A stretch of 45,219 bases of DNA from a virus. Shown here piece by piece: positions 10,969 to 45,109 of this stretch. The notes beneath the pieces are model-generated. The model searched no databases. It was not told the DNA's origin and was given only the letters and a program-made list of their open reading frames with translations. The stretch lies in the IMG/VR virus record IMGVR_UViG_3300037961_006176, positions 1 through 45,219 of that record; one strand, given 5' to 3'. The first letter of the stretch is position 1; each line of letters starts with the position of its first letter. The position numbers and the translations under genes were made by a program.

Positions 10969-10994
10969 ATAACTTTTTTATTTGTTGTACCATC

Positions 10995-11002
10995 AATATA
11001 CG
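10995..11002 (-). promoter_or_regulatory. CGTATATT motif before the groES-groEL operon
   Basis: The minus strand reads CGTATATT, about 26 bases before the ATG at 10968, within the 73-base gap after hsp20. It is preceded by a T-rich run (TTTTTTA). It has the same core and similar spacing as the copies before gp32 (37238-37245) and the 54-residue gene (25448-25455). Confidence 0.45.
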
Positions 11003-11007
11003 TAAAA

Positions 11008-11025
11008 AACATTGCTAGGACACGT
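11008..11025. repeat. Inverted repeat, arm downstream of hsp20
   Basis: The plus strand reads AACATTGCTAGGACACGT. The minus strand at 11518-11538, upstream of hsp20, reads the same sequence with a 3-base insertion (TAG after AACATTG) and one A-to-G change. The two arms are opposed and enclose hsp20. Confidence 0.7.
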
Positions 11026-11041
11026 TTTTTTTGTAAAACTA

Positions 11042-13628: not shown

Positions 13629-13629
13629 A

Positions 13630-14319: not shown

Positions 14320-14327
14320 AAATCTAA

Positions 14328-14594
14328 TTAAAATTTACCACTTTCTCCTGGTATTTGGATTATTCCTTTATCTTTAGTTCCATCTGATCTTAGTCTATCA
14401 TTGTATTGTAATGATATATCATATGATACATTATTTATTTTAAATTTTCCTCCTTGTTTTAACATTTTCCTAAAAAAGGACTCTTGTTTTTCATCCCAGG
14501 ATTCACTAATTAAAATTAATTCTTCTTTAGATATAGGAGCGTCATTAGCTAAAATATACATTCCTTTTCTTATTGATTGTTTTTTTAAAGCCAT
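14328..14594 (-). CDS. Small hypothetical protein
   Basis: An 88-residue soluble protein, basic at the N-terminus (MALKKQSIRKGMYIL) with a helix (ISKEELILISESWDEKQESF) and a C-terminal part with beta character (GKFKINNVSYDISLQY). I recognise no family. It lies 1 base downstream of the FkbM gene and 8 bases upstream of the methyltransferase gene, inside the insertion between the polymerase halves. Confidence 0.6.
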   Translation of the reverse strand: MALKKQSIRKGMYILANDAPISKEELILISESWDEKQESFFRKMLKQGGKFKINNVSYDISLQYNDRLRSDGTKDKGIIQIPGESGKF

Positions 14595-14595
14595 A

Positions 14596-15420: not shown

Positions 15421-15778
15421 CCTCTAGTCTAACAATATCATCTTCTCCAAAATAAGTTCCTGTTTGGACTTCAATAAAAATTACATCTTCAGAAGTTTCG
15501 TTCCAAGCTCTATGTTTGGCTCCTAATGGAATGTGTATTGATTCACCTGGGTATCTAAATACTTTGTCATCATCTAAAATTATAGTTAAATTACCTTTAA
15601 CTACAATCCATTCTTCTCTTCGTTTATTATGGTATTGGTAAGATAATCTTTTACCAGGTTTAACTCTTATTCTTTTTACCTTAACATTCCATTCATCTAA
15701 TAATATTTCATATTCACCCCAAGGTCTATTTTGTTCAGGGCTAGGTAGGTTATTCCACCAACTATCTACTATACTCAT
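15401..15778 (-). CDS. Cupin, type II mannose-6-phosphate isomerase-like
   Basis: A 125-residue single-domain cupin. NRPWGEYEILLDEWNVKVKR at the start, LSYQYHNKRREEWIVVKGN with the metal-binding His/Glu, IPLGAKHRAWN with the third His, and EVQTGTYFGEDDIVRLEDDF at the end match the C-terminal isomerase domain of ManC/AlgA (E-x-Q-x-G-x-Y-x-GEDDIVR). It would interconvert fructose-6-phosphate and mannose-6-phosphate, or a related sugar, feeding NDP-sugar synthesis. It overlaps FkbM on one side and a 53-residue gene on the other (ATGA). Confidence 0.85.
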   Translation of the reverse strand: MSIVDSWWNNLPSPEQNRPWGEYEILLDEWNVKVKRIRVKPGKRLSYQYHNKRREEWIVVKGNLTIILDDDKVFRYPGESIHIPLGAKHRAWNETSEDVIFIEVQTGTYFGEDDIVRLEDDFDRV

Positions 15779-15936
15779 TTTACGTATCCACTTTTAATTT
15801 TTTTAATCATATCTCTAATTTGATCATTCCAAAGACTCCAAGTGTCTCTATCCTGTTCAAAATAAGCTTGTTCACATCTAGTTTTTGTTTCACTTTCAAA
15901 AACATTTAATAGGTTTAGTAATTGATCTTTTATCAT
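15775..15936 (-). CDS. Small hypothetical protein, 53 residues, directly after gp43 N-terminal part
   Basis: Translating the minus strand from the ATG at 15936 gives a 53-residue, helical, charged protein (MIKDQLLNLLNVFESETKTR at the start, IRDMIKKIKSGYVK at the end). Its ATG overlaps the TGA of the polymerase gene (ATGA) and its own TGA overlaps the ATG of the cupin gene (ATGA), exactly as expected of a real coupled gene. No family recognised. Because it starts where the polymerase half ends, an interaction with the split polymerase is conceivable but not shown. Confidence 0.65.
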   Translation of the reverse strand: MIKDQLLNLLNVFESETKTRCEQAYFEQDRDTWSLWNDQIRDMIKKIKSGYVK

Positions 15937-17642
15937 AGTTCTAATTTTACTTCATTTTTAATTACTTTATTCATATGTTTATTAGCACATAAAGCTGATT
16001 CCTGGATAATACGGTGACCAGTTAATGTAATTGCTTCACTTAAAATAGATAAACTCATTCCATATCTAAATGAAGGTAAAGCTGTAGCACCATACAAACT
16101 GTTAAGCAAAATTTTCATTGTATATTGCATTAAGTAATAGTACTCACCTTTTTCTTTATCTCCAGCTTTATAAGCTAATTTCATTTTATTTTTATAATCT
16201 ACTCTTTCATCAAACCATTTATTTAAAATAGTTGATAATGTTGATTCTTTTTTAGTATCAAAAATACTCCCATTTGCTGATATAGCTAGTCCATTTTGTT
16301 CTATCATAGCTACTAGTCTACCTACATTAACTTTAGTTTGTTGTCCTTTAGGATTTTCAACTAATAATTCTTCATCTTGATCACGTTCCTTTAAATCATT
16401 AAGACCTAATCTATTATTTCTATCATCAGCATCTACTATTCTTCCAACAAATGTTTCTTTACCTATATTTAAAGACATTATAATAGATGGATATAGTGAA
16501 GTTAAATCCTCATCAAACATATATTTATACAAACCTGCTTTAGGGCAAAATAAGTAACCACCAGCATAACCTTTTTTACTTTTAGGATTAGGATCTTTGG
16601 CTGGGGGAATTATATTTTGAGATAATAGATAAGCTGAAATTGCTCCGTCTTGTGTATTACTATTAGCATAAACTTCACTATAATTATGTTTGCCTTTATG
16701 TGATAAGTTTTTAGTTAAAGCAATATACTGTAATTTTTCGTCTAGTAATTTTAGTATCTCAACATCACGAAAGTTATATTGAATGAATTTTTGAATATCA
16801 GTTTCAAATAATTGATCTAAATTACCCTCATATTCTACTTTACCTATACCTGTATATTTTTCTCCTATTGCATCTAATTTCCAACTAGGTTCATCTTTCC
16901 AACTATACTTTTTATGTAATCTCATATAGTCTAGGGATTCAACTCCTACAATATCTACAAATTGATTACGTTTAAAGAAATATTGATTACCTTTTTTAGC
17001 ATTTACTCTACTTATTGGTGATAATTCATTAGCAAATTCATCTCCTAATACATTGCACATTCTATAATATAAATAAGGTATATCAAAAAAATCACTATTA
17101 TAACCAATTAAAATATCAGGATCAATTTCTCTAAAATGTTCTAAAAAGTTAGCAAGTAAACTTTGTTCTGTGTTACAAGGTATAATTTCTTTATTTTTAG
17201 CTTTAGTACGTTTTAATTCGTCTTTTTTATCTAAAACTAAAATTACCCATTTATCTGGGGTTTTGTCCCAGTAGGCAATAGATGTAATAGGCATAGGAGC
17301 TCTTTCTATATACTCCTCAGTTAAAGCTCCTCCAATTTCACACTCTATATCAAAAAATAATTCTCTATGACCTGTAGATGGTTTATCATCAATACCATAT
17401 CTCTCAATAAGATATTTTTGATAAGGTTTCATATCATGGAAATGTAAATTAGGGGTGTTTTTATTCCATTCATAGGTCCTAATTAGATTTTCCCCATTAA
17501 TTCCCTTATCTGTAGCCTTGTCTTTAGAACATTCTTTATATGCAGTGTTATACCATTCAAGTTCATCATAACCTGCTTCATCCCATAAATGAATTTTATA
17601 TTTATTATTTCCTAACCTTGTGGCATAACATTTTTTATACAT
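15933..17642 (-). CDS. 43: DNA polymerase family B (gp43), N-terminal part
   Basis: A 569-residue protein with the exonuclease and first half of the polymerase domain. Exo I FFDIE is at 96-100, exo II YNSDFFD at 181-187, exo III YNFRDVE at 289-295, polymerase motif A DLTSLYPSII at 379-388, and motif B KILLNSLYGA at 510-519. It ends about 50 residues after motif B, before motif C, which is encoded separately at 12310-13245. All proofreading and motif A/B catalytic residues are intact, so this is a functional split, not decay. The TGA overlaps the next ATG. Confidence 0.93.
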   Translation of the reverse strand: MYKKCYATRLGNNKYKIHLWDEAGYDELEWYNTAYKECSKDKATDKGINGENLIRTYEWNKNTPNLHFHDMKPYQKYLIERYGIDDKPSTGHRELFFDIECEIGGALTEEYIERAPMPITSIAYWDKTPDKWVILVLDKKDELKRTKAKNKEIIPCNTEQSLLANFLEHFREIDPDILIGYNSDFFDIPYLYYRMCNVLGDEFANELSPISRVNAKKGNQYFFKRNQFVDIVGVESLDYMRLHKKYSWKDEPSWKLDAIGEKYTGIGKVEYEGNLDQLFETDIQKFIQYNFRDVEILKLLDEKLQYIALTKNLSHKGKHNYSEVYANSNTQDGAISAYLLSQNIIPPAKDPNPKSKKGYAGGYLFCPKAGLYKYMFDEDLTSLYPSIIMSLNIGKETFVGRIVDADDRNNRLGLNDLKERDQDEELLVENPKGQQTKVNVGRLVAMIEQNGLAISANGSIFDTKKESTLSTILNKWFDERVDYKNKMKLAYKAGDKEKGEYYYLMQYTMKILLNSLYGATALPSFRYGMSLSILSEAITLTGHRIIQESALCANKHMNKVIKNEVKLEL

Positions 17643-18171: not shown

Positions 18172-18640
18172 TATCTTTCATTTTTTTCCACCAAGATGTT
18201 TTGGCTCCACCTGGCATAGTTAGACCACCAATATAATGAGAATCTCTTAAATGCTCAACCTCCTTTAAGTAATCAGGTATAGCTTCTGAATCTTCTCTCT
18301 CCCATGGATATACTATCCATTGATCTCCTACTTCTTTAGCATAAATGCAATCTTTAAATTTTGAAGTAGGTTTATTATGTAACACAGCCCAATAAGCACC
18401 TGGTGCTTTACTTAAAGTATGTCCTGTATCATTAATATCATCCACAACTAAAGTATTCTTACCTGGATGTAAAACATAAGGTAATCCTAATTCATGTGAA
18501 ATTAATACTGCTGGGATTAAACCTCCTCTCGGTAATCCCATTACTGAATCTATGTTTGGGTAATCCATAAAGATTTTATAACATAGCATTCTTACACATT
18601 CGTGTATTTCAGACCATTCTAAATAAACTTTATTACTCAT
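18164..18640 (-). CDS. Purine phosphoribosyltransferase (guanine/xanthine/hypoxanthine type)
   Basis: A 158-residue PRTase. SVMGLPRGGLIPAVLISHEL is the pyrophosphate-loop region and NTLVVDDINDTGHTL the PRPP-binding motif. The ending VGDQWIVYPWERED resembles the W-x-x-x-PWE segment of xanthine-guanine PRTases. I take the ATG at 18640, which shares bases with the folE2 stop (TAATG), rather than the ATG at 18667, which would overlap folE2 by 28 bases. It converts a purine base plus PRPP to the nucleotide. In this cassette it could recycle guanine released by DpdA. Confidence 0.82.
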   Translation of the reverse strand: MSNKVYLEWSEIHECVRMLCYKIFMDYPNIDSVMGLPRGGLIPAVLISHELGLPYVLHPGKNTLVVDDINDTGHTLSKAPGAYWAVLHNKPTSKFKDCIYAKEVGDQWIVYPWEREDSEAIPDYLKEVEHLRDSHYIGGLTMPGGAKTSWWKKMKDNE

Positions 18641-19659
18641 TAAGATATATGAATTAAACTTGACCATGTTTCATGTGAAACATCGGGGCAAAACTTACTA
18701 TTTGGATGTAGAATAACTGATATAGCATCATGTGAATGTAACGATTCTTGATGTGAACATATTACTCTAAAATCCTTTATTCTTTTATCTGCAATTAATT
18801 GCTCATATATTAATCTAGCAGCATCTTCTACAAATTTAAGATAAGAACCATTTAATTCAGCAAATGCCATTTCATCTTCTCTTTTTACTACTACTTGAGT
18901 TTCTGTATTGAGAGCTCTATCACACATTTCTTGTAATTCCTCTATCCAAACCATATCTTCAAATTCAATGGATATTCTAGCTACTGATCTTTGTGAATGT
19001 GATACTGTGGCTTTATTTCTATATTTTCTAGCATACTCAGCTAATTCATAAGAACAAGGACAAGCTGATGAATATACAAAATCAAAATGAATGTATTTTT
19101 TAAGTTCACCCTCTTTATTTAAATCACCTTCTAAAGTAACATTGTAATACTGGTAGCCCTCATTATCTGATCTTAGTGATTTTTTAATAATAGGGTAAGA
19201 AAATTTAAGTGCAATTTTAGAATCAAATGTATTTAATTTTTCCTTATAAGCATATAAAATATCTTTTAATTTATCTATACTAAAAGTATCATTTCTAAAT
19301 TCATAAAAGGATCTCATAATACGAGACATATTAATACCTTTTTTATGTGCTTCTAAAGATACTGTACCCGTTACTTTAGTTTCTAATTCTATATCACCAT
19401 TATCCCTTGTTGAATATTTTAGTGGTAATCTAAAATTATGGATTCCCACTTGTTGAATTTCAACGGGAGAACCTTGAATTAATGATGAAGGACCATTTTG
19501 CAAATCAGGAAAGGTTTCAATATCTTCCTTTGTAGCAATATAATCTGAATCATAATCCCTATTTGGTTCATTATATTTTATTGAATGTTCATTTGGTTCT
19601 GGTTCTTTGTAGGAATTTACATCTCCCACCCATTCATATTTTTTTTCGAATTTACTCAT
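18640..19659 (-). CDS. folE2: GTP cyclohydrolase FolE2 (type IB)
   Basis: A 339-residue enzyme. Family features are GIHNFRLPLKY early, KGINMSRIMRSFYEF (the FolE2 M-S-R helix), YSSACPCSYELAEYA with the metal-binding/catalytic Cys, SHSQRSVARISIEF, and the C-terminal ESLHSHDAISVI. The first 65 residues are an extra polar extension compared with bacterial FolE2 (about 270 residues). It converts GTP to 7,8-dihydroneopterin triphosphate, the first step toward 7-deazaguanine. Together with QueD, QueE and a QueC homologue it gives the pathway a GTP entry point. Confidence 0.92.
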   Translation of the reverse strand: MSKFEKKYEWVGDVNSYKEPEPNEHSIKYNEPNRDYDSDYIATKEDIETFPDLQNGPSSLIQGSPVEIQQVGIHNFRLPLKYSTRDNGDIELETKVTGTVSLEAHKKGINMSRIMRSFYEFRNDTFSIDKLKDILYAYKEKLNTFDSKIALKFSYPIIKKSLRSDNEGYQYYNVTLEGDLNKEGELKKYIHFDFVYSSACPCSYELAEYARKYRNKATVSHSQRSVARISIEFEDMVWIEELQEMCDRALNTETQVVVKREDEMAFAELNGSYLKFVEDAARLIYEQLIADKRIKDFRVICSHQESLHSHDAISVILHPNSKFCPDVSHETWSSLIHIS

Positions 19660-19786
19660 TTTCTAAATATTCTTTTAATTTATCTATTAATACTAATACT
19701 TCATCTGGTTCCATTGTTATTGCACAACAAACACCAACATTTTCCTCTATTTCCTCTAAAATTTCTAATGCTTCTTCTCTAGACAC
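19652..19786 (-). CDS. Small hypothetical protein between queE and folE2
   Basis: A 44-residue frame with a GTG start at 19786 that overlaps the queE stop; it ends 8 bases inside folE2. It is acidic and helical (EEALEILEEIEENVG, then DEVLVLIDKLKEYLENE) with two adjacent Cys in the middle. An upstream TTG at 19852 would give 66 residues but would overlap queE by 74 bases, and an internal ATG would leave about 20. The start is therefore uncertain. It fills an otherwise empty 119-base gap, which supports a real gene. Confidence 0.5.
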   Translation of the reverse strand: MSREEALEILEEIEENVGVCCAITMEPDEVLVLIDKLKEYLENE

Positions 19787-20561
19787 AACGCTCAGTATTA
19801 AATGCCATAATATGAGCTCTGCCCGTAAATCTCCAACCTCTATCCCTAGCAAAATTCATTACAGGTCCATAACTTTCAAATAAAGATTCCCTATCATCAC
19901 CAGCAGGCATAACCCAAACTTTATCATCTGGTATATTACATTCTTTAAGGAAATCTTCTACTTCACTAACCATAGATAATTTATTATCTAATACAGGTTT
20001 AATATGATAATCATCATGATACTCAATAGACTGTTTTATAGCTTCTACATTGCATCTTTTCGAGTTATGTTTTTTAACCATCCTTTCGTCGACAATTGCT
20101 CCTTGAGGAGTAGTAGCACCAATAACGGGAATGCTATTACTGAACTTAGGAGAAATTGAAAGGAGATTAATAGGATAATCAGTGGGAAGGAAATGACTTC
20201 CTTCAGTTTCGATAGTAATAAAGATATTATTTTCATGAGCAAAATGAGTTAATTCATTTACTAGAGCAGGATGCATTGTAGGAGAACCTCCTGTTAACAT
20301 CATCTCCTTTATATGAGGATGATCATTATACATGTCAATAATATCTTGGAAACAATAAGTACCTTTTTCTGGGTGAATACTTGTATACCAAGAATCACAC
20401 CAACCCCCCTCTCCAAAATAACATCTATGTGTGCATCCTGATGTTCTAACAACAATTGTAGGATAACCTTGTCTTGATCCTTCTGATTGTACTGCGGTGT
20501 AAAGTTCTAACACCCCTAGAGTCTTTTGATAGTCCTCTATTCTTTTTAATTGTTTGTGCAT
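19779..20561 (-). CDS. queE: 7-carboxy-7-deazaguanine synthase QueE (radical SAM)
   Basis: A 260-residue enzyme. LGVLELYTAVQSEGSRQGYP is the usual QueE start. The cluster motif is C-x3-C-x7-C (CTHRCYFGEGGWCD), longer than the standard C-x3-C-x2-C because of an insertion. MMLTGGSPTMHP is the GGE-like motif, IFITIETEGSH a later strand, and LLSISPKFSNS the S-P-K motif of QueE. It turns 6-carboxy-tetrahydropterin into 7-carboxy-7-deazaguanine. It lies between queD and folE2 in the cassette. Confidence 0.9.
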   Translation of the reverse strand: MHKQLKRIEDYQKTLGVLELYTAVQSEGSRQGYPTIVVRTSGCTHRCYFGEGGWCDSWYTSIHPEKGTYCFQDIIDMYNDHPHIKEMMLTGGSPTMHPALVNELTHFAHENNIFITIETEGSHFLPTDYPINLLSISPKFSNSIPVIGATTPQGAIVDERMVKKHNSKRCNVEAIKQSIEYHDDYHIKPVLDNKLSMVSEVEDFLKECNIPDDKVWVMPAGDDRESLFESYGPVMNFARDRGWRFTGRAHIMAFNTERCV

Positions 20562-20605
20562 ATTGTTAATTTTTTAAAGTGGTTTTTCATTCACTAATAA
20601 CCTTT

Positions 20606-21070
20606 TTATTCGCTATAATAAGCTGCATTTTTGCCGTGTTCCATAAACTTAACTTTAGTAACTCTAACTCTACCTTCAGTTTCAGTATCAACAAACTTAT
20701 TAAGCTTATTATAAATATATTCAGCAAATTTCTCTGCGCCAGTAGCCGGTATTACTCTTACTTGAGCTACTCCAGCTGTGTCCATTTCCTTAAATGCATT
20801 AATATATGGATCATCCTCAGCAACTATTAGAGTATGATCAAACATATAATCCATCCATTCTTTAGGTGATTTACCATCAATTTTAGTTTTGGCTCTTTTC
20901 ATACCACCAAAATCCCAAACCCAATTTCTTTCATCTAAACCTCCTTCAAAATAAACTTTAAATGAAATTCCATAACCGTGAATAAATCTACAGTGTGTTG
21001 TTTCTGCTTTCCATTGACGGAACACTGTACTAAATCCGTCAAATACTTTACTTGATTGAAATTTACCCAT
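20606..21070 (-). CDS. queD: 6-carboxy-tetrahydropterin synthase QueD
   Basis: A 154-residue member of the PTPS/QueD family. THCRFIHGYGISFKVYF holds the catalytic Cys and the H-G-(H/Y) metal-site segment, VWDFGGMKR is the D-F-x-x-(L/M)-K motif, and MFDHTLIVAEDD contains the D-H-x-x-L motif. GAEKFAEYIYNKL replaces the common P-T-x-E-N-x-A helix. It makes 6-carboxy-tetrahydropterin from dihydroneopterin triphosphate, the FolE2 product. It overlaps the thioredoxin gene by 8 bases. Confidence 0.88.
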   Translation of the reverse strand: MGKFQSSKVFDGFSTVFRQWKAETTHCRFIHGYGISFKVYFEGGLDERNWVWDFGGMKRAKTKIDGKSPKEWMDYMFDHTLIVAEDDPYINAFKEMDTAGVAQVRVIPATGAEKFAEYIYNKLNKFVDTETEGRVRVTKVKFMEHGKNAAYYSE

Positions 21071-21311
21071 TATAAAAATTTAATATTTGTGCGTCTGGTT
21101 GGTTACCAACTAAACGTCTTAATTCTTGACCATTTTGGTCAACTAAAACTAAACTAGGAACACTTCTAACTCCATACTTCATAGACATTTCTCTATTTTG
21201 ATCAATATCTATTTTTTTGTAATTAATTTGCCCCTTTAACTTTTCCATTCTCGGTGCTAGTGCCTTACAAGGACCACACCATGCTGCTGTAAAATATAAA
21301 ATTGTATTCAT
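21063..21311 (-). CDS. Thioredoxin
   Basis: An 82-residue small thioredoxin. FTAAWCGPCKALAPRM has the WCGPC active site. YKKIDIDQNREMSMKYGVRSVPSLVLVDQNG supplies the rest, including the cis-Pro loop (SVPSL). It is shorter than E. coli thioredoxin (108) but similar to phage thioredoxins and glutaredoxin-length forms. It can reduce ribonucleotide reductase (nrdA/nrdB are at 30186-32889) or other phage enzymes. It overlaps queD. Confidence 0.9.
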   Translation of the reverse strand: MNTILYFTAAWCGPCKALAPRMEKLKGQINYKKIDIDQNREMSMKYGVRSVPSLVLVDQNGQELRRLVGNQPDAQILNFYNG

Positions 21312-21313
21312 AA

Positions 21314-21532
21314 TTAAACTAATTCTTCTATTATACCTATTAACTCACTAAATATAAGAACCCCTACTGCAATAGGCACGGAATATAGTAAAAGTCCATA
21401 ACCAGCTAATCTAAAGCCGGATTTAATAAAACTTACAATTTGATGCCATTTTTGATTTGGCATATATTCTAAATTTTCTCTATCTTTTTTAATACTGTTA
21501 AAATCTTTCATATTTTTATTTTTTATATCCAT
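21314..21532 (-). CDS. Small single-span membrane protein
   Basis: A 72-residue protein with a polar, charged N-terminal 40 residues and one hydrophobic segment at about 44-65 (GYGLLLYSVPIAVGVLIFSE). It ends IIEELV. The ATG at 21532 overlaps the upstream glycosyltransferase stop by 10 bases; an ATG seven codons in (21511) is also possible. No family recognised. Confidence 0.6.
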   Translation of the reverse strand: MDIKNKNMKDFNSIKKDRENLEYMPNQKWHQIVSFIKSGFRLAGYGLLLYSVPIAVGVLIFSELIGIIEELV

Positions 21533-22419
21533 TCTTTAATTTCATTAAATACATATTCTGGTGTGATGCTAGTATGACATTCAAATTGTCTGGGTGTGTT
21601 TTTATGTTCAGGGCACCAATACCAATCACTAACATCAAAAACTTTATCTTTAGAATTCCAACAACCATGACAAACATTTTTATTAGTTATTCTTTTGTAA
21701 TTATTTAAGTTTAAATCAAATTCATGCCAATCTTCTGTAAAATTAGCTATCATAGCAACTGGTTTATCTAATGCATGAGCAACCCAAGCAATACCCGAAG
21801 ATAACCCAATATAAAACTCTGAATGCTCTATATAATTAATTACTTCAGATAAAGGTAAATTTAATTTTTTAACTGATTTTTTAGGTGTTCCATTAAAAAA
21901 TGGACTCTTACCAAATAATTCATGTTGGTCTAAACAAACAGGAGTAATTCCTTCTTTTCTTAACATTCCACATAATTCTTTCCAATAAGGAGATTCTGGT
22001 TGTTTTCTAATTCCCTGTGGAGAGTTCCAATATTTTAATTGACTTGTTGACTGAATGCCAAAAGTAACATACTTACTTTTTATTGGTCTTTCTTTTTTAA
22101 ATGAATCAATTTTAGGTCTTATATATCCTGGGTTTTCGAATCCTAATTGTTCAGCCATACCTTGTTGTAATGGGCTATGAAAATTATAATTAACATCTAA
22201 TGATACATCAAAAGGTTGTGTTCTAGAATTAAGATAATTATCGTCTACAAATATAATATTTGGGTATGATTTAATAAATAAGTTATGAAAATATCTATTA
22301 GCAAAAAAATAAACATTGCAGTTATGTTTTTGTCTATATAATTCTAGATAAGGCATTAGAGCAATAGTATCTCCTAATGATTTAGATAATAAATTAATTA
22401 AATGGTCTTTTATTATCAC
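21523..22419 (-). CDS. TibC-like (BAHT) O-heptosyltransferase
   Basis: A 298-residue GT-B enzyme of the GT9 type. LLSKSLGDTIALMPYLELYR at the start and SEFYIGLSSGIAWVAHALDK in the donor domain match heptosyltransferases, in particular the bacterial autotransporter heptosyltransferase (TibC/AAH) family. The C-terminal part has four Cys (C-x2-C in NVCHGCWN, then WCPEH and FECHTS), as in the iron-finger motif of that family. It would transfer heptose from ADP-heptose to Ser residues of a protein. ADP-heptose enzymes are encoded at 37274-38382. The start is GTG, overlapping the preceding stop (TAGTG). Confidence 0.78.
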   Translation of the reverse strand: MIIKDHLINLLSKSLGDTIALMPYLELYRQKHNCNVYFFANRYFHNLFIKSYPNIIFVDDNYLNSRTQPFDVSLDVNYNFHSPLQQGMAEQLGFENPGYIRPKIDSFKKERPIKSKYVTFGIQSTSQLKYWNSPQGIRKQPESPYWKELCGMLRKEGITPVCLDQHELFGKSPFFNGTPKKSVKKLNLPLSEVINYIEHSEFYIGLSSGIAWVAHALDKPVAMIANFTEDWHEFDLNLNNYKRITNKNVCHGCWNSKDKVFDVSDWYWCPEHKNTPRQFECHTSITPEYVFNEIKEWI

Positions 22420-22610
22420 TATTTTCCTCCGTTCTTTCTATAATCAATTATAAACCCAATAGCTACTAAAATATTTAAACCTAAACTAGCTAATATCTCA
22501 TGTATATCTTGATACACATTTAAACTTAAATGAACATGCCCTATAATCCAAAACGGAATAGCCATTTGCTGACTATACCAAATTAAAGCAAATTCTAAAA
22601 ATTTTTTCAT
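22419..22610 (-). CDS. Small membrane protein, 63 residues
   Basis: A 63-residue protein with two hydrophobic segments (about 6-28 and 41-56) and a basic end (DYRKNGGK). The frame is open further upstream to an ATG at 22694, but that region is the tRNA-Gln gene, so the ATG at 22610 (MKKFLEFALIWY) is chosen; it follows an AAAATT leader like many genes here. The stop overlaps the next GTG start. Family unknown. Confidence 0.65.
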   Translation of the reverse strand: MKKFLEFALIWYSQQMAIPFWIIGHVHLSLNVYQDIHEILASLGLNILVAIGFIIDYRKNGGK

Positions 22611-22622
22611 AATTTTAATTTG

Positions 22623-22693
22623 TAGTCTCATAAGGATTCGAACCTTAACTAGCTGGACCAAAACCAGCTGTGCTACCGTTACACCATGAGACA
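22623..22693 (-). tRNA. tRNA-Gln (anticodon UUG)
   Basis: The minus strand folds into a full cloverleaf of 71 bases. It has a D-arm GTGT/GCAC, an anticodon stem GCTGG/CCAGC with loop TTTTGGT (anticodon TTG, reading CAA), a 4-base variable loop, and a T-arm TAAGG/CCTTA with loop TTCGAAT. The acceptor stem pairs at six positions; the first pair is T-T, in line with the weak first pair of Gln tRNAs. CCA is not encoded. It lies 6 bases after queC. Reading CAA fits the AT-rich codon use of this phage. Confidence 0.92.
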
Positions 22694-22699
22694 ATTGTA

Positions 22700-23524
22700 T
22701 TATTTTGAATACTCAGATAATACTTTTGCTACTGAATCTCTTGCTACTTCCCAAGTAACAGGCCCCGTTTCATCAGCATATTCTACTGGGTCAGGTCTTC
22801 CTAATGCAATAAAAGCTTCAATTCTTTCTACTGATGAAGCTGATTTATAATCAGAATACCATTTCCAGGCGTTAGTTTCAGGTCTATAATAGTGTTTAAT
22901 AGGCTTATAAGATGTGTTAGTTCTTGAATAAACTTCATCAAACTCTAATCCTAATTCCTCACATAATTCTTCTCCATCTTTTAAAATACCTAATTTATCA
23001 GTATCTAAATAAGGAGTAAAATAACCAACTCTATCAGCATCCCAATTACCAACTCTAAATGCATTGTCGTCTGCATCTCTAAATTCTTGTCTACAATCAG
23101 GATAAATAGCATGATCACCAGCGTGGATACCTAAACAAATATCAACATTTTCTTCTGTAGCATTTGCCTTAGATAAAGCTACTGCTTGAGTAATAGAAGC
23201 GAACATTTTATTTCTATTAGGTACTACTGTTTCTTTCATATTATCTTGCTCATAATGTCCTTCTGGAACATCATCTCCACCTTCTACTAAAGCGGAATTT
23301 AACAAATCAACTAAACCATCAAGTTTAATTTGTTTGTAAGTAATATTAAAGCCTTTACTTGCTAAATAATCTATAAGAGACTGTGCTCTTTCTAGTTCAA
23401 CTCTATGCTTTTGACCATAATCAAAAGATAAAGCTGTAACTGAACTGTACTCAGATAACGCCCTGAGTAAAAGTGTGGAACTATCCATTCCGCCACTTAA
23501 CGATACAACTGCATGATTATACAT
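22700..23524 (-). CDS. queC: QueC-family protein lacking the zinc site
   Basis: A 274-residue PP-loop protein. VVSLSGGMDSSTLLL is the ATP-binding loop, VTALSFDYGQKHRVELERA the next QueC motif, VVPNRNKMFASI the third, and YPDCRQEF and YFTPYL follow. In ordinary QueC four Cys near the end bind zinc (C-Y-x-G ... C-G-x-C-x-x-C). Here the region reads RTNTSYKP ... YSDYKSASSVERIEAF with no Cys at all. Canonical QueC turns the 7-carboxy compound into preQ0; this one may differ, for example a decarboxylase of the DpdL type. It overlaps dpdA by 8 bases. Confidence 0.85.
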   Translation of the reverse strand: MYNHAVVSLSGGMDSSTLLLRALSEYSSVTALSFDYGQKHRVELERAQSLIDYLASKGFNITYKQIKLDGLVDLLNSALVEGGDDVPEGHYEQDNMKETVVPNRNKMFASITQAVALSKANATEENVDICLGIHAGDHAIYPDCRQEFRDADDNAFRVGNWDADRVGYFTPYLDTDKLGILKDGEELCEELGLEFDEVYSRTNTSYKPIKHYYRPETNAWKWYSDYKSASSVERIEAFIALGRPDPVEYADETGPVTWEVARDSVAKVLSEYSK

Positions 23525-24353
23525 TGTTAACTAAATTTAAAAATGACCCAGTATGTTCTGGATAGGGCCTCAATCCATTTATTTTTCTAAACATAGAAGT
23601 ATTATGTAAAATATCTTCATAGTTAATATCTGTAAATTTAACATCAAAATGATCATTCATATTTGCTTTAGGTTTTTCTGTTAATCCACTTTCATCATAT
23701 TTAATGCCTTCTAAAGCAGCCATTACTGGGTTTGATGTATCAATAGATTCTATAAATTTAAAATCTCTATACCATCCAAATTCTTGAGGTACTGCACAAC
23801 CTAATAAATGAATTCTATCATATACACCTAATCCTTCTTCTTGGATTAATTTACTAATAAATGTTAATCTACCTAATGCTTTACCTAAATCTTTATTTAC
23901 ATGAGGATATAAATCATTATACCAAGTAGCACCATAAGAAATAGCTATTTTTTTATAACCTAATTCTTTTAAATTTCTAAAACTCTTCCAAGCATCAACA
24001 TAATCTTTTCCTTGAACTACAGCTACTCTAGTACAATTTTTAGGCATTTTAATTCCTCTCCAATATTTAGCATATACTTGAGTTTGAGTATAATCCATCC
24101 ATTCATCTGGGACTATAAATTCATTAGGGCATAATTCATGTAACCAATACATTAATCTTTTCCAATCATACGCTTTTCCTAATTCATGTAGTGAATTATC
24201 CATAACAATATATCTTCCTGCTTTTTTAGCATCGAAAAAATATTTCTTATACTCTTCATCTTGATCTAAAAGATGGGGGAGACAATAGTCATAATCATTA
24301 AATTCTTGGGATGCTAATAAAAGACATCTAGGTACTTCGTGACTTACTTTCAT
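23517..24353 (-). CDS. dpdA: DpdA-like DNA guanine transglycosylase
   Basis: A 278-residue TIM-barrel protein of the tRNA-guanine transglycosylase superfamily, in the compact phage DpdA form. Barrel strands can be followed: RYIVMDNSLHELG (Asp52, a candidate catalytic residue), NEFIVPDEWMDYTQT, TRVAVVQGKDY, KKIAISYGATWY and IHLLGCAVPQEFGW, with FIESIDTSNPVMAALEG near the end. The zinc Cys/His set of tRNA enzymes is absent. It would swap guanine in DNA for a 7-deazaguanine base. I use the ATG at 24353; a TTG at 24389 would add 12 residues. It heads the cassette with queC. Confidence 0.82.
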   Translation of the reverse strand: MKVSHEVPRCLLLASQEFNDYDYCLPHLLDQDEEYKKYFFDAKKAGRYIVMDNSLHELGKAYDWKRLMYWLHELCPNEFIVPDEWMDYTQTQVYAKYWRGIKMPKNCTRVAVVQGKDYVDAWKSFRNLKELGYKKIAISYGATWYNDLYPHVNKDLGKALGRLTFISKLIQEEGLGVYDRIHLLGCAVPQEFGWYRDFKFIESIDTSNPVMAALEGIKYDESGLTEKPKANMNDHFDVKFTDINYEDILHNTSMFRKINGLRPYPEHTGSFLNLVNNV

Positions 24354-24395
24354 ATAACTAACGTTACGAAACTTGTTTATATTTTCCAAATAATT

Positions 24396-28611: not shown

Positions 28612-28896
28612 TTAACGTCTTTGTTGTAATTCATATAGACGCTCATCAATCTTATCTAATTGCTCTCTCATCGCTTCAACGTCTTCTTGAGTATCCATTA
28701 TTGTTTGACGTATTAATTCGTCTTTAAGATCATACTCAATTCTATCAATTACTGGTTCTGGAAGTTCTTTTGCTAAAGCTATATCAGCTTGTAATGTAAA
28801 ATACATTAATGCTAATGAAACTGCTCCAGCTAATAACATCCCTATTGTTTTTAGGTCTAGTGTGACTTTAGTATCTTCGCCTATTTGCTTTGCCAT
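28612..28896 (-). CDS. Single-span membrane protein with coiled coil
   Basis: A 94-residue protein: a polar start, one transmembrane helix at about 17-38 (TIGMLLAGAVSLALMYFTL) and a long charged helix from about 50 to 94 (DTQEDVEAMREQLDKIDERL) with heptad-like spacing. It would stick a coiled coil into the periplasm or cytoplasm. Its ATG overlaps the stop of the barrel gene (TAATG) and it lies 2 bases before the exported thioredoxin-like gene. A spanin-like role is possible but not shown. Confidence 0.65.
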   Translation of the reverse strand: MAKQIGEDTKVTLDLKTIGMLLAGAVSLALMYFTLQADIALAKELPEPVIDRIEYDLKDELIRQTIMDTQEDVEAMREQLDKIDERLYELQQRR

Positions 28897-30131
28897 TATC
28901 TAAAAGTATAATTAAGTCCAAAAGATGTTATAAACATTTTAGAATCCCACATTCTAGTGTATTCCGTATCAGCAAATATTCCTAATGATTTACTTATTTT
29001 CCATCCAAAATTAGCTCCTGCTTGATAATCCCACCATTGATCACCTTCTGCTGCATCAGCTAATCCATATTGATCCCAACTATCTCTAAATAAGTAAGAT
29101 AATGGAACTCTACCATAATCATCTTTATCACCTCTTACATACTTGTGATAAGGTAAATATGCGGTTCCATATAAGTGTAACCAGAAGTTAGATTTATAAT
29201 GGTAAAAATCAAATCCTACTACTGGGCTTACTAACCCAAATTCAGATGTATTACCTAAAACTTCTGCATTATATCTTGAAATTAATCTTTTATAAGGTCC
29301 ATCTCTAAATTCTAAATCGGAAGAAGCAATTCTAACCCCGTTTGGATCCCACCAAAAATAACCTCCAATATTTTGTTCATTACCTGTTACAGGATTATAT
29401 ATTGTTGTAGTATAATATGCATCTTGGTAACCATATTCATAAGCTAATTCATACCAATAATTTTCTTGATTACCATCCGCATCTAAAGCACTAACCCAAA
29501 TTTCATAAGGATTAACACCATAAACTCTTTCATGTGTTCTATAAGCAGCACCTGCCGAGAGTGCAAATTTCTTTCCAATTGGTAATCTAGCTCTTAAATC
29601 AGCCGAATTATAATTAAAATCATAAGCACCTTGAAATCTTGATTCTATTTTAGCAATGTGATATTTTCCTGTATGTCTTAAAAATAACCTCTGATTGTCC
29701 CATTCTTCTCCTCTACGTCTTTCTTTTTCAAAGTGGAATAAATATTCCCAACCTTGTACTGCAGAGGTAGGAGCTAATAAGGCATTTTGTCTTTCCTTAT
29801 TTTGATCGCCAGTCCAAAAATTACCTGGTTTTCTTTCGTAGTCAAATCTACCTAATTTACGAATACCAAACCCAATTCTATAATCTGAAGGGAAATATTC
29901 AGTAACATCAACTACTTCCGGTACATCATAAATCCCAGCACCCTCAGGAGTTCTAATTAAATATTTTTTATCTGATGATTCATATGCTGATCTATAATCT
30001 CCAGCGCCATATACTGTAGCGTATTTAAAGAAATCATTATAGAATTCTTTAAAAATATTTTTCTTTTCCTTTTCTTGAGCCGTAGCAGGAATAGCTAGGA
30101 ATAATGCAACGATTAATAAGAATATCCTCAT
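28896..30131 (-). CDS. Predicted outer-membrane beta-barrel protein with signal peptide
   Basis: A 411-residue protein. MRIFLLIVALFLAIPATAQ is a signal peptide ending in the Ala-Gln common in Bacteroidota. The mature part is Tyr/Trp/Phe/Gly/Asp-rich with many short alternating strands (for example HIAKIESRFQGAYDFNYNSA, KFALSAGAAYRTHERVYGV, FGWKISKSLGIFADTEY), and it ends MFITSFGLNYTFR, close to the C-terminal aromatic signal of barrel proteins. No plug or known porin family recognised. A phage-made surface protein could alter receptor access or envelope strength. First gene of the envelope operon. Confidence 0.7.
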   Translation of the reverse strand: MRIFLLIVALFLAIPATAQEKEKKNIFKEFYNDFFKYATVYGAGDYRSAYESSDKKYLIRTPEGAGIYDVPEVVDVTEYFPSDYRIGFGIRKLGRFDYERKPGNFWTGDQNKERQNALLAPTSAVQGWEYLFHFEKERRRGEEWDNQRLFLRHTGKYHIAKIESRFQGAYDFNYNSADLRARLPIGKKFALSAGAAYRTHERVYGVNPYEIWVSALDADGNQENYWYELAYEYGYQDAYYTTTIYNPVTGNEQNIGGYFWWDPNGVRIASSDLEFRDGPYKRLISRYNAEVLGNTSEFGLVSPVVGFDFYHYKSNFWLHLYGTAYLPYHKYVRGDKDDYGRVPLSYLFRDSWDQYGLADAAEGDQWWDYQAGANFGWKISKSLGIFADTEYTRMWDSKMFITSFGLNYTFR

Positions 30132-37273: not shown

Positions 37274-38005
37274 TTAAATAACTACAACTCCTTTTTTTTC
37301 TACAACCTCTAAAGCACACTTTTGTGCAAAAGCAATACTTTCGATAACATTTTTACTAGTTAAATAGCTAAAAACAAAGGCAGCAAAAAAAGTATCTCCC
37401 GCCCCTGATAAGTCAGAAACTTCTGCCTTTCTTTGAGGTGGAATAATTGTATCATTATATTTAACCCCATTTTCACCCAATGTAACTAATAAATTTCCTT
37501 TATAATTTTTTAAATATTTTTGATTTTTATCAAATTCAAACTCATTTATTTTTATAAATGTAGTTTCATTTATCCATTTATCAAATATTTTTTTAGAGTC
37601 AATAAAAGATAAAGGATATTTATCAATAAGATATTGAATAATCCTTTCTGTTAAAAAACCTTTATTATAATCACTAATTACAACAGCATCATAGTCTCCT
37701 AATCTAGTGATAACATCATTTTTTACCCTTTTACAACTATCATCCTCATCTACTCTTAATAACATTTGGTTAGTTTTAATATCAACTAATCTTGTTTTTG
37801 TAATTTCATCTTCATTAGTAACCAAATCTATATCCCAATTTTTAGCTAAACTTGCTAAATTATTAAAAACATTTTTAGCCATTCCTCCATTTGATTTTTG
37901 TTCAATAGGATTAAATACAGGTACAGGAGCTTCAGGGCAAATTCTATTACATTCACCGTAAACAAATTTATCTATACAACTATCTCCTATAACTAATACT
38001 TTCAT
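37274..38005 (-). CDS. HldE-type heptose-7-phosphate kinase (PfkB/ribokinase family)
   Basis: A 243-residue sugar kinase. KVLVIGDSCIDKFVYGECNR is the RfaE1/HldE start, PEAPVPVF plus SNGGMAKNVFNNL the substrate loop, and SDLSGAGDTFFAAFVF the PfkB signature with catalytic Asp. It is shorter than the HldE kinase domain (about 310) through loss of part of the lid. With the adenylyltransferase gene just upstream (overlap ATGA) it would make heptose 1,7-bisphosphate, two steps before ADP-heptose. The two enzymes are a fusion in many bacteria. Confidence 0.85.
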   Translation of the reverse strand: MKVLVIGDSCIDKFVYGECNRICPEAPVPVFNPIEQKSNGGMAKNVFNNLASLAKNWDIDLVTNEDEITKTRLVDIKTNQMLLRVDEDDSCKRVKNDVITRLGDYDAVVISDYNKGFLTERIIQYLIDKYPLSFIDSKKIFDKWINETTFIKINEFEFDKNQKYLKNYKGNLLVTLGENGVKYNDTIIPPQRKAEVSDLSGAGDTFFAAFVFSYLTSKNVIESIAFAQKCALEVVEKKGVVVI

Positions 38006-38382
38006 TTTAAAATATTTGAGGTTGAATAATTACCTATACGATCAAAATATACAATTTTTTTAGCATATTGACCACCTACTATTTCCTTACCTTTCCAATC
38101 ACTTCCTACAACTAAAATATCAGGTTGTTCTTTTTGAACTAGCCATTCTAAGTGGTCTTTAGAATCAAAAACATAAATTTGATCTATAGCTTTTAAACTT
38201 TCTAAAGCATAATGTCTATCTTCTAGGTTATTATAAGGTCTATCTGGTCCCTTATCTTGAGCTACTTTTTCATCAGAATCAATTCCAACAACAAGATAAT
38301 CACCTAATGATTTAGCATAATTGAATAATTCAAAATGTCCTCTGTGGAGAATATCAAAACAACCATTTACCCAAATTTTCAT
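38002..38382 (-). CDS. HldE-type heptose-1-phosphate adenylyltransferase
   Basis: A 126-residue nucleotidyltransferase. WVNGCFDILHRGHFELFNYA contains the H-x-G-H motif of the cytidylyltransferase fold. YLVVGIDSDEKVAQDKGPDR, PYNNLEDRHYALESL and YSTSNIL are the remaining family motifs; S-T-S is the nucleotide-binding end. Close to the HldE/RfaE2 C-terminal domain (about 130 residues). It would join heptose-1-phosphate to AMP, giving ADP-heptose. It overlaps the kinase gene by 4 bases. A glycerol-3-phosphate cytidylyltransferase is the main alternative, less likely beside the kinase. Confidence 0.85.
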   Translation of the reverse strand: MKIWVNGCFDILHRGHFELFNYAKSLGDYLVVGIDSDEKVAQDKGPDRPYNNLEDRHYALESLKAIDQIYVFDSKDHLEWLVQKEQPDILVVGSDWKGKEIVGGQYAKKIVYFDRIGNYSTSNILK

Positions 38383-40987: not shown

Positions 40988-43900
40988 TTAAAATCCAATA
41001 CCAGAACTTACTGGGGGTTTATATGCGTCATAATAGTTACATCCTACTTCTAATAGCATTGTTATTAATTTTTTAGATGGAAAAATATCACTTTTATCGG
41101 CTCTAAATGTATTATGGGTGAATACTCCAGTTCCTGGGGAAGGGTAAACAGTTGATTGGTTAGGGAATAGTACTGGGAACCATTCATTAGCTATAAAATT
41201 ACACCAACTACCACCACCAACAATTCCTTGTCTAAGTTCTCTTCTAAATTGAGCCGCTTTATTTGCTAGAAGATTATTTGTAAATGTTGAAGTCCATTCA
41301 TAAACCGCTTTATTATTCCTACCTTCTACACTTAAACAAGGTCTACCTAAGTAAGTAAAAACTTTAATTGGATAATGGTTAGTTATTACAGAAATAAGAA
41401 TCTCTCTTAATAAACTAATTTGAGCATCAGTATACTCTTCAAAATAATCAAAACCTCTATAATTTCTCATTGGTTGGAATTTTAAAGAACCAAAAACTTG
41501 TGTAGAAACACCCGCTAAATCAGTATTAGCTACTAATTTATAAGGTACGGATACTCTATCAGCTGGTATTATTTTTCCAGTAGAATTTATATATTCTCCA
41601 TTGTTATTTTTAGTTAACCACCCAGAACTACATAATTCAACACTAATTTGGTTTTTAGCCCCTTGACGACCAATACCTGCGTTTGATGCCCAGTATTTGT
41701 AATCCATTACTTTAACACCATTTCCTTCTCTATCAACTATCCAATGAGTACTCACTCCTGCTTTTGGGTTTGGTGGTCGGGAATCTTCATTTCTCCAATA
41801 TCTCATTATTCCTTCAACTTCGGCCTTACTACTTTTATCTATATTATCAGTAGCTGTATGATGTAAAACAATTTGTGTTTTATTAGTTTCTGTATAGAAG
41901 TAAACTAAACCTGAAGGGGAATATTCGTTTACTGTTGAGATATTAGGATTATGTGGACCTCTAACACTATCAACTGTTCGAAGTCTTTCAGGTGGGTTAG
42001 CATTACTTTTTACTGTTCTTTTAGATGGTCTTGGTAGTCCACCTTCTAATATTTTAAATTTATCACTTGTTGCTTTTGTTGAAGAAGGAATGGATAAACA
42101 TTCATAATCAGTAGTCCAATTATTTTCTCCAATTTTATGGTTTACTTTAGTTGTTATAAAACTTAAAGAATTAGGATAATTAGCAGGTAAAAATCTTTGA
42201 TCTATATTTAATTTATTATATATTTTTACTCCAGCTAATCCTTCAACTGTCATTTGGAATTGTAAAGGTATAAACCCGTTAGTCATTGTAACTACTCCTT
42301 CATCTTGATATTGTTTTTTATCTACTTTTTCTTTAAAACTTTTGTATAAAGATTTACCTAATTTAATAAAATCCTTATTTTGTTTATACCATTGAGCATC
42401 TCTAATCTCTACAACTTCATTTGTTAAACCTGAGCCTATAGCGCTATTTTTTTCAACATAATTTAATCTTTGTCCTCCAAAAGCCGTAGCTAAATAGCTA
42501 ATATAATCACTAGCAACTTCTCCAGTTTTATCATTAAATTCCCTACCATCTGCTGCAGTACCCGATTCTACTAAATCATATAAACTTATAATATACCCTC
42601 GAAGTCCCGCACTTTTGTCCCATATATAAGCTTTAATACCCTGAGATCTTTGAGAAGAATCAAACTCTCTTTTATATTTATCTGGTAGGTTACTATAACT
42701 TAAAATGTTTTGATATTGTAATTTTATTTCATAAAAATTACCAAAAGATCCTAAGGGTTTATTTTCAATTTTTACTCCTCCTCCATTATTAAATGAAATT
42801 ACTTGAGAATATCCATTTCTTTTTATTTTTCCTTTTTGTATCCATTCATCTCTAATTTCATTTTCCCTTTTTATTAATTCTTGAGTTATATTTATTTGTG
42901 GTGGGGTAGTTTCTTCAAATTCTTCCTGGAATCTATTTATTAGTCCTTTATTCCAATTGCTTAAAGGTAAAGCACTAACCCCCTTAGTTGATGAATTAGT
43001 AGCAGCGGCCCCAATAGAAATTATATTTTGTAAATCAGGAGTAATTTTAGTTATAAAATTAAAATCTTTAACAAAGTTAGATGCTCCAGTAGTTGGGTTA
43101 TAACCTATTAATTCAAATTCTGCTAGTCTTGGTGCTTCTTCCTCTACTTTAGGTTTTACTGCCTCTAACATTCCAGCATATCCCCTAGGGAGATTTTGTT
43201 CTATAAAATTAACATAAATATTATCTTTAATTGATGGTTCTAAATTAGTTATACCACACATTGCTCTATTTATACCATTACAAATATTTTGTAAAAAAGT
43301 AAATACTGAAATTGATCCATCTACATTTTGATTTGATTCTAATTCATCAATTAAAAATTGAATATTTAAATATAAATTCATTAATTGCCCAACTACAATT
43401 GTGCCCCCCGCATTACTATTATTATTTGTTTCCAATGAAAATTCTTTATTAACAAAATTTTCTATTTTAAATGGTCCATTAGTTCCAAAGAAATATCGTA
43501 ATGTGGTATAATCTTGAAAGTCAGGATCTGATAAATCATATTCAGTACTACCTTCGGGGTTTAGTTTTTCTTTAACTTCATCTGTTAAAATTGGTTTAAA
43601 TACACAAATAGTAGGATCTATTGGGATAAAATTAGGTTCATAATTACATATAATTTGATTATTTTCTTCAAATATTAATTCAGGTGCTGGAACGGATGAT
43701 TCCGGATCGCTAATAAATTTATTAACTCTATTAAAAAAATCAGTTAAAAATTTACCAAATCTTATATAATTTTTACCTCGTAATGACTGGAGAGTCTGTT
43801 CAAATGCATCAGAAAATTCTTTTTTTATAAATTGGTCAGCTAAAGTTATATTACCGAATGTCTCCTTAATACTTGATACTATTTTTTTAGTTGGGACAAA

Positions 43901-45109
43901 CTGATCAAAACTTACATAGTCTTTACTATTTTCTTTTAATTCATCAAAATTAATAATTGTATTTACTAGATATTTAGATATAGCATCGGCTCCTAAATTA
44001 GGTAATTTAACATTCGAATCTTCCTCACCTATTGTTTTTATTTCTTCTTCCGCATCACTACGTCTTACTCTCTCTGTTAGTTCTCCATCTAAACCTGGCT
44101 CAATATTTACAGCTTCGGAAACTCCAAATACTCTATTTTCAATATATAATTTTTCTCTTAGTGCTCTTAAACCAATTTTTGAAGATGAACCTGGAGGATT
44201 AGCGGCTAAAGAAGTAATAACACTACCTAAAGTTATTAAATTAATAGTAATATCATAAGATAAATCTGGGTTTAGCTTCCATTCAAAGTTTGTAACTTTA
44301 CCTAAAAATCCATCATAATTACCTTTATAACGAGATCTATAATTCTCAATAATACTAATTACATCTCTTGGTGTTTTACCTTTTTCTTGTTCAAACCAAA
44401 TATCATCAATTATTGTAGTACCTGTATTTTGGATATCTATTGTGGGAGGACTAGTACTTTCATCAATATTATTTACATACTTGTCCCAGCCATACTCTAA
44501 CATCATAATATAACCTAATCTTAGATATAAGGTTTCGATTATGCTAAATTGAAATTTATTAAATGCTTTTAAAGTTACTGTTGCTTTTTTTATAGAACCT
44601 CTATTTACACAATCTACACTAACATCAATTATACCTGGGATAGGTTGTAAACCTTGATCTTTAAATCCCATACCTCCATAAAGTGAATTAAAGGAATTAA
44701 ATAAAGATTTATTTTTAATTACCCCACTCCTGGTTTTGTAAGTACCATCCTCATTTAATGATTGAAATGTATTAAAAAGTATAAAATTTTGAGCTAAATT
44801 TTTACCTAAAAATCTATCAATATCAGCATCTGTAAATGTGCTAGGATTAGTTTCTGTTGGTGAACCAGTACCAACATAACCATCACTAATTAAAATATCT
44901 TTGATTTTTTGTCTTGCTTTTGAGTCAATACCAATTCCAGAAGCTAATTTTACCCATGCATTTCGAGTGTTTAAATAGTTTAAAACTTTATTACTTCTTT
45001 TAGTAGTATTATTAAATCTATCAGTACCTGATCCTTGTAATTTTTGTCTAAAATTAATTTGATCAGCTACATAATCTAATACTTCTTCCCCTACTATATT
45101 TCCTGTCAT
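40988..45109 (-). CDS. Large tail/baseplate protein with amidase domain
   Basis: A 1373-residue protein. The first 1,050 residues look structural (for example VDCVNRGSIKKATVTLKAFN and YLRLGYIMMLEYGWDKYVNN near 190-240, resembling baseplate hub proteins of marine T4-like phages). At about 1070-1180 there is an amidase_2-type domain: TQIVLHHTATDN, then STHWIVDREGNGVKVMDYKY and NQISVELCSSG. The metal-binding HH is present; I could not place the second zinc His with confidence. It would open host peptidoglycan as the tail penetrates, the role of gp5 lysozyme in T4. Confidence 0.75.
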   Translation of the reverse strand: MTGNIVGEEVLDYVADQINFRQKLQGSGTDRFNNTTKRSNKVLNYLNTRNAWVKLASGIGIDSKARQKIKDILISDGYVGTGSPTETNPSTFTDADIDRFLGKNLAQNFILFNTFQSLNEDGTYKTRSGVIKNKSLFNSFNSLYGGMGFKDQGLQPIPGIIDVSVDCVNRGSIKKATVTLKAFNKFQFSIIETLYLRLGYIMMLEYGWDKYVNNIDESTSPPTIDIQNTGTTIIDDIWFEQEKGKTPRDVISIIENYRSRYKGNYDGFLGKVTNFEWKLNPDLSYDITINLITLGSVITSLAANPPGSSSKIGLRALREKLYIENRVFGVSEAVNIEPGLDGELTERVRRSDAEEEIKTIGEEDSNVKLPNLGADAISKYLVNTIINFDELKENSKDYVSFDQFVPTKKIVSSIKETFGNITLADQFIKKEFSDAFEQTLQSLRGKNYIRFGKFLTDFFNRVNKFISDPESSVPAPELIFEENNQIICNYEPNFIPIDPTICVFKPILTDEVKEKLNPEGSTEYDLSDPDFQDYTTLRYFFGTNGPFKIENFVNKEFSLETNNNSNAGGTIVVGQLMNLYLNIQFLIDELESNQNVDGSISVFTFLQNICNGINRAMCGITNLEPSIKDNIYVNFIEQNLPRGYAGMLEAVKPKVEEEAPRLAEFELIGYNPTTGASNFVKDFNFITKITPDLQNIISIGAAATNSSTKGVSALPLSNWNKGLINRFQEEFEETTPPQINITQELIKRENEIRDEWIQKGKIKRNGYSQVISFNNGGGVKIENKPLGSFGNFYEIKLQYQNILSYSNLPDKYKREFDSSQRSQGIKAYIWDKSAGLRGYIISLYDLVESGTAADGREFNDKTGEVASDYISYLATAFGGQRLNYVEKNSAIGSGLTNEVVEIRDAQWYKQNKDFIKLGKSLYKSFKEKVDKKQYQDEGVVTMTNGFIPLQFQMTVEGLAGVKIYNKLNIDQRFLPANYPNSLSFITTKVNHKIGENNWTTDYECLSIPSSTKATSDKFKILEGGLPRPSKRTVKSNANPPERLRTVDSVRGPHNPNISTVNEYSPSGLVYFYTETNKTQIVLHHTATDNIDKSSKAEVEGIMRYWRNEDSRPPNPKAGVSTHWIVDREGNGVKVMDYKYWASNAGIGRQGAKNQISVELCSSGWLTKNNNGEYINSTGKIIPADRVSVPYKLVANTDLAGVSTQVFGSLKFQPMRNYRGFDYFEEYTDAQISLLREILISVITNHYPIKVFTYLGRPCLSVEGRNNKAVYEWTSTFTNNLLANKAAQFRRELRQGIVGGGSWCNFIANEWFPVLFPNQSTVYPSPGTGVFTHNTFRADKSDIFPSKKLITMLLEVGCNYYDAYKPPVSSGIGF

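Follow-up and report, generated by a model that had tools for sequence, protein, structure and literature searches.

A phage-encoded HldE-like kinase and nucleotidyltransferase pair and a TibC-type glycosyltransferase point to possible heptosylation of virion fibres

The virus record IMGVR_UViG_3300037961_006176, analysed here over its whole 45,219 bases (the window), encodes a short HldA/HldE-type kinase and nucleotidyltransferase pair, as judged from sequence, together with a TibC-type glycosyltransferase. We tentatively read these genes as a phage heptose-activation module and a transferase that would heptosylate a virion fibre, a reading to which we give slightly less than an even chance. 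Behind it stand homology, fold, conserved residues, linkage of the module genes, a deletion scar and a statistical link to repeat proteins in relatives; from these we infer the substrate, the nucleotide, the acceptor and a fibre encoded outside the 45 kb. The record is a linear, AT-rich (~29% GC) virus fragment, so absences from it are weak. Its replication gene set is T4-like, and its UvsX shares 62.7% identity with the Flavobacterium phage immuto protein. ORFs at 8681-11464 (minus strand) resemble GroEL, GroES and a small heat-shock protein by eye. A 1373-aa protein at 40988-45109 (minus strand) holds an amidase-like stretch (Amidase_2 match, sub-cut-off) and diverges fast, with 27-43% identity between relatives.

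The two genes of the pair are:
37274-38005, minus strand: HldA/HldE-N-like PfkB sugar kinase, 243 aa, a short form (profiles and structure model)
38002-38382, minus strand: HldE-C-like nucleotidyltransferase, 126 aa (profile matches and alignment)

The ORFs overlap by 4 bases and encode two separate chains. The kinase matches Pfam PfkB (E 4e-15), and its best NCBIfam family is TIGR02198, HldE domain I, at 126.8 bits against 41.5 for ribokinase, a score far below the family cut-off of 345 bits. The nucleotidyltransferase matches CTP_transf_like (E 7e-17) and scores best on TIGR02199, HldE domain II, at 107.1 bits; this is well below the cut-off of 181.5 bits and 29 bits above the glycerol-3-phosphate cytidylyltransferase model (77.7 bits). 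Its sequence matches in the PDB are in the majority cytidylyltransferases. The sequence-only reading had taken the two adjacent genes for the halves of HldE, and the best families bear this out for both genes where it had placed them. The structure nearest to the AlphaFold2 model of the kinase (pLDDT 93.8) is Burkholderia HldA (4e84; Z 25.4, rmsd 2.1 over 235 residues, 30% identity), with ribokinase second at Z 23.6, a gap of less than 2 Z units. Aligned with bacterial HldE-type kinases, the kinase retains an SGAGD segment and an N-terminal PEAPVPV segment, and the HxGH motif is retained in the nucleotidyltransferase alignment; SGAGD and HxGH we take to be motifs of HldE membership. Compared with HldE and HldA-HldC (RfaE), the window shares the best family of both proteins, the nearest kinase structure and, through 22 of 80 viral relatives, the kinase-first fusion order, but it has two short separate proteins that score under the curated cut-offs, and its kinase is without ~27 alignment columns found in the bacterial enzymes.

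The sugar is not readable from the window alone, and we turned to viral relatives. From 593 viral loci we kept 80, ascertained through an HldD-like (ADP-heptose 6-epimerase-like) SDR gene alone. A kinase is present in 66 of these and a nucleotidyltransferase in 58, with a cupin in 61 and a HAD protein in 10. Kinase and nucleotidyltransferase are fused as one ORF in 22 of the 80, always kinase first, as in HldE. Every one of the 22 fused-ORF loci (among L448-L527) has a cupin as well as its HldD-like gene. Against the ADP-heptose 6-epimerase model the partner SDRs reach 159-210 bits, against GalE 23-58; HldD is the best match of the SDRs that adjoin the kinase in L041 and L044 (182 and 192 bits, GalE 46 and 58) and of the SDR homologue in P-SSM2 (210 bits). 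Among viral relatives of the kinase, the gene content between nucleotidyltransferase and kinase differs: a HAD and a cupin lie there in L033, L034 (a near-duplicate of L045) and L036-L040, a GT4-type transferase in L029, L032 and partly in L030 and L042, and no gene in the window and L031. L044 (6794-12203) holds two types of heptose kinase, PfkB and an HddA-like GHMP kinase (93 bits, cut-off 600), along with a GmhA-like SIS protein (at most 57 bits, under the cut-offs) and a HAD-nucleotidyltransferase fusion. Heptose, as the sequence-only reading had it, gains from the HldD-like linkage, the natural fusions and the GmhA-like and HddA-like genes of L044, and we consider it likely; ADP as the activating nucleotide we regard as somewhat less likely than heptose.

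The transferase gene is:
21523-22419, minus strand: TibC-type glycosyltransferase, 298 aa, catalytic and iron-finger modules, without the N-terminal barrel

Its earlier assignment to the autotransporter-heptosyltransferase type was confirmed. It scores 202.1 bits on TIGR04414 (autotransporter heptosyltransferase), marginally above the cut-off of 200, and matches TibC 4rap with E 2e-34. The model (pLDDT 87) lies nearest TibC (Z 28.4, rmsd 2.2 over 278 residues), followed by the GT9 structure 3tov (Z 20.0), WaaF (18.6) and WaaC (18.1), the last two being ADP-heptose enzymes. We took the catalytic and donor-binding residues from the accessible portions of PMC4358343 and read them across 39 phage transferase sequences. 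In TibC numbering, D110, K230 and W305 are kept in all 39 and T226 in 36, and the window enzyme has all four. The four iron-finger cysteines are found in 38 of the 39; in the window they are Cys 250, 253, 269 and 281, as residues only.

Two features of TibC are missing. R286, which contacts adenine N1 according to those portions of PMC4358343, is replaced by Val193 in the window in a sequence alignment, and is Arg in 4/39 phage transferases. The N-terminal beta-barrel (TibC residues 1-97), the deletion of which is described there as abolishing TibC activity, is absent, the match beginning at profile position 84 and TibC residue 92. The same text has P300 make TibC select the D,D form while AAH takes both heptose forms; the window has Ser at this position, as in AAH. 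No autotransporter substrate gene was matched among those window ORFs scanned with Pfam. Compared with TibC and AAH (BAHT), the phage-encoded enzyme therefore has the same fold, catalytic Asp, Thr/Lys/Trp donor residues and four iron-finger cysteines, and shares the Ser at the stereoselectivity position with AAH, but it differs in the barrel, in the adenine-contact Arg and in having no autotransporter partner recognised among the ORFs scanned. As the barrel and R286 were tested and are both missing, we assign no BAHT membership. Fold and residues together suggest that the enzyme would work like a TibC-type enzyme. The proposed TibC-like use of ADP-heptose on Ser is accordingly retained as to fold and weakened by the Val at R286 and the missing barrel.

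We also looked at genomes from the order of a Flavobacteriales MAG, a host order guessed from UvsX only. TIGR04414 was passed by 0/150 of them, with six weak matches, while 107/150 gave an HldE-kinase match of at least 250 bits, two of these passing the cut-off. If the host belongs to this order, the transferase would be uncommon among host genes, while the hosts may well make heptose themselves.

Further genes were placed with the module:
21314-21532, minus strand: 72-aa ORF, its first 15 bases being the start of the HldD-like gene of G022; deletion scar
2-286, minus strand: HAD phosphatase of the module, 95 aa visible, cut by the left contig end (profile, 121 bits)
15401-15778, minus strand: cupin of the mannose-6-phosphate-isomerase type

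The window gave no match to an HldD-like epimerase. Its nearest relative by synteny, G022, has an HldD-like gene that starts inside the final codons of the TibC-type transferase gene, and the small ORF that follows the window transferase shares 15 bases with this epimerase and then enters the next gene. The remnant and the intact gene in G022 indicate that the transferase-adjacent epimerase was lost in the window lineage. This loss beside the transferase joins the kinase pair and the transferase, which 15 kb separate in the window, as parts of one system. A frameshift of the epimerase in G022 was rejected, its frame being broken only by a run of N.

The G022 copy of the HAD gene is fused to a hexapeptide acetyltransferase. 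A HAD fused to a left-handed-helix (hexapeptide) acetyltransferase is also seen in L168 (113-868, minus strand), possibly with a role in glycan O-acetylation. HAD homologues in P-SSM2 and L037 match an EcbF/BcbF-type HAD model, sub-cut-off, and no GmhB model was matched. A search for GmhA, proposed with the sequence-only reading, returned no homologue in the window, itself a fragment, and one sub-cut-off match among 40 records; a GmhA-like SIS protein was found in 0/80 HldD-ascertained loci with our own profile, built from five sequences and with its positive control on four of those five. Genes annotated as 'phosphoheptose isomerase' (T4-GC 306) in the cyanophages L002, L003, L004, L005 and L007 were rejected as GmhA, since they align with HAD phosphatases; the P-SSM2 copy matches TIGR01689. 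The window cupin is a possible sugar isomerase, presumably tied to the heptose module.

What might the transferase act on? The fetched flanks of 11 of 21 transferase loci contain a collagen-like (Gly-X-Y)n gene, which is Ser/Thr-rich in nine; the 11 include the near-duplicate pairs L009/L010, L012/L016 and L025/L026, the repeats of L009/L010 being mostly Ser/Thr-poor. In L018 the repeat runs for 918 aa, with 97% Ser/Thr outside Gly. No such gene was seen in the fetched flanks of 17 kinase loci, in the window or in L168-L174. We then drew viral contigs solely by a DNA pattern, taking for each pattern the first 50 contigs of at least 15 kb among the matches listed (80 rows; at least 120 stretches for each pattern). 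A TibC-like enzyme is present in 17/50 contigs chosen for (Gly-Thr-Ser)3 and in 1/50 chosen for (Gly-Pro-Gln)3 (Fisher p 3e-5, which overstates the significance, the contigs being related), a comparison confounded by phage group. One of the 17, G010, was already in the earlier set, which leaves 16 new contigs. In 10 of these a Ser/Thr-rich repeat ORF lies 43-5,685 bases from the transferase, and in the other six it is absent from the fetched stretch. Scanning ten ORF ends gave an S74 tail-fibre chaperone in four, collagen repeats in five and neither in four. In L012, L016 and L018 the transferase is near genes that resemble tail sheath and tube, judged by eye. The repeat linkage, the pattern-drawn contigs and the S74 and collagen ends single out virion fibres as the most plausible acceptor among relatives. 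The window phage's own acceptor is not in sight within the 45 kb, where, as in L168-L174, we found no Ser-rich repeat protein; a fibre encoded elsewhere in the genome would fill this place. A tail fibre had been among the acceptors first proposed, and the suggestion is strengthened by the relatives and not by the window itself. For the other candidate, the phage's own exported barrel protein, we found nothing in support, 28896-30131 being without a Pfam match.

Several further genes of the window have counterparts around the transferase in relatives:
13242-13628, minus strand: DUF6165 protein, with relatives in 7/21 TibC-like transferase loci
13630-14319, minus strand: methyltransferase-like by eye, no Pfam match, with relatives in 3/21 transferase loci
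14596-15420, minus strand: FkbM-type methyltransferase
6129-6836, minus strand: FkbM-type methyltransferase

FkbM proteins are near the transferase in 9/21 loci. The family B DNA polymerase is in two ORFs within 12310-17642 (minus strand), 15933-17642 with SLYPS and 12310-13245 with DTDS, and cupin, FkbM, methyltransferase-like and DUF6165 genes lie between them. Among eight kinase-ascertained contigs of at least 20 kb, the transferase is present in G022, G009, G025 and G028 and was not found in G023 (nearly identical to G028), G026, G027 and G036. Conversely, the kinase occurs in 3/21 transferase loci and in 3/17 of the (Gly-Thr-Ser)3 transferase contigs, one of them weak. As the kinase is missing from most transferase contigs, the enzymes are separable, and many such phages must use host heptose or another sugar; the window phage supplies at least part of its own activated sugar. 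The T4-like cyanophage heptose/LPS clusters share both the kinase family and the nucleotidyltransferase family with the window and also contain HAD, cupin and HldD-like genes, but are without a strong TibC-like match in the five module-bearing records, one of which gave 17.8 bits. The families are also those of pelagimyophage rfaE.

We hypothesise that the kinase would convert heptose 7-phosphate to heptose 1,7-bisphosphate, that the HAD protein at the contig end would yield heptose 1-phosphate, a step we supply, and that the nucleotidyltransferase would form ADP-heptose. The TibC-type enzyme would then transfer the activated heptose to hydroxyls of a protein expressed in the course of infection, for which a Ser/Thr-rich virion fibre is the likeliest candidate. 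The FkbM-type methyltransferases may modify the glycan. With the HldD-like epimerase lost, the phage would make the D,D form or use host pools. A wider conjecture is that aquatic phages carry a GmhA-free ADP-heptose pathway, with a cupin isomerase for GmhA and a small HAD for GmhB, and TibC-type enzymes that hyper-O-heptosylate Ser/Thr of collagen-like (Gly-Ser/Thr-Ser)n tail-fibre shafts, the window phage being a reduced, epimerase-less member; we consider it quite unlikely.

One feature bears on the alternatives as well:
18640-24389, minus strand: 7-deazaguanine cluster of FolE2, QueE, QueD, thioredoxin, QueC and a weak DpdA-like gene

Activated heptose and several transferases could instead remodel the host surface, altering O-antigen or capsule, for example to bar other phages, with the TibC-like enzyme acting on a glycan or a host surface protein. 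This is the published reading for pelagimyophage rfaE (PMC7029224, in the text accessible), and it is consistent with the GT2 and two GT1/GT4-like transferases and the PMI-type cupin of the window, with the large sugar clusters, epimerases and transferases among them, that surround the cyanophage relatives, and with heptose that may be host-native, given the 107/150 kinase matches. TibC and AAH act on protein, however, in the accessible portions of PMC4358343, and the linkage of the transferase to Ser/Thr-rich repeats, and to sheath-like genes in three loci, argues for the virion; we consider surface remodelling rather unlikely. A different activated sugar, with another nucleotide (GDP, CDP) or another sugar phosphate moved by the TibC-like enzyme, would account for the loss of R286 in 35/39 phage transferases, the scores of kinase and nucleotidyltransferase under equivalog cut-offs and the cytidylyltransferases among the PDB matches, and the cupin in 61/80 modules might further alter the sugar. 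The linked epimerases are specifically HldD-like, however, fusions occur naturally in the HldE order, and TIGR02199 leads the cytidylyltransferase model, and we judge this explanation improbable.

Deazaguanine may be present in the phage DNA, given the FolE2/QueE/QueD/QueC genes, and the transferase sits within this cluster, away from fibre genes, between QueD/thioredoxin and QueC/DpdA-like genes in both the window and G022. It might therefore decorate a 7-deazaguanine base. This adjacency is not conserved: a que match was found in 0/21 transferase loci, and the 69.5 kb of G036 contain the que cluster but not the transferase. We dropped this reading as most improbable. Pentose DNA sugars (RB69 arabinosylation, Thanatos) were rejected as a parallel, the accessible parts of those sources naming no HldE-like enzyme. 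Heptosylation of a virion fibre remains our preferred reading.

Phage HldE-like genes are already known. PHROG 7878 carries an HldE-like name, and 35 phage records, for the most part from cyanophages and marine viruses, contain the kinase. The accessible portions of PMC10653327 note rfaE/hldE in viruses and those of PMC7029224 discuss pelagimyophage rfaE as an O-antigen gene, while those of PMC4508852 and PMC4283603 had no bearing on the matter. To call ADP-heptose an unusual metabolite for a phage, as the sequence-only reading did, was therefore an overstatement. One BFVD entry, from an uncultured phage, is named Aah/TibC, and the transferase is also carried by a cultured virus, Microcystis phage Mel-JY01. 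In the openly licensed PMC literature on phage ADP-heptose, TibC and fibre O-glycosylation we found no work on phage TibC-type enzymes. As far as we can see, the following is new: HldD-like and TibC-like genes are linked, the window has lost this linkage, the module does without GmhA and has a cupin, and the TibC-like enzyme is associated with Ser/Thr-rich repeat proteins.

If the reading is correct, phages would heptosylate their own fibres, and would do so with enzymes of a family described until now for bacterial adhesins. This would have consequences for the stability of the fibre, for host recognition and for masking. The reading would give a testable function to phage genes usually classed as 'LPS' auxiliary genes, correct the annotation of the cyanophage 'phosphoheptose isomerase' to a HAD protein and point to a missing isomerase that the cupin may supply.
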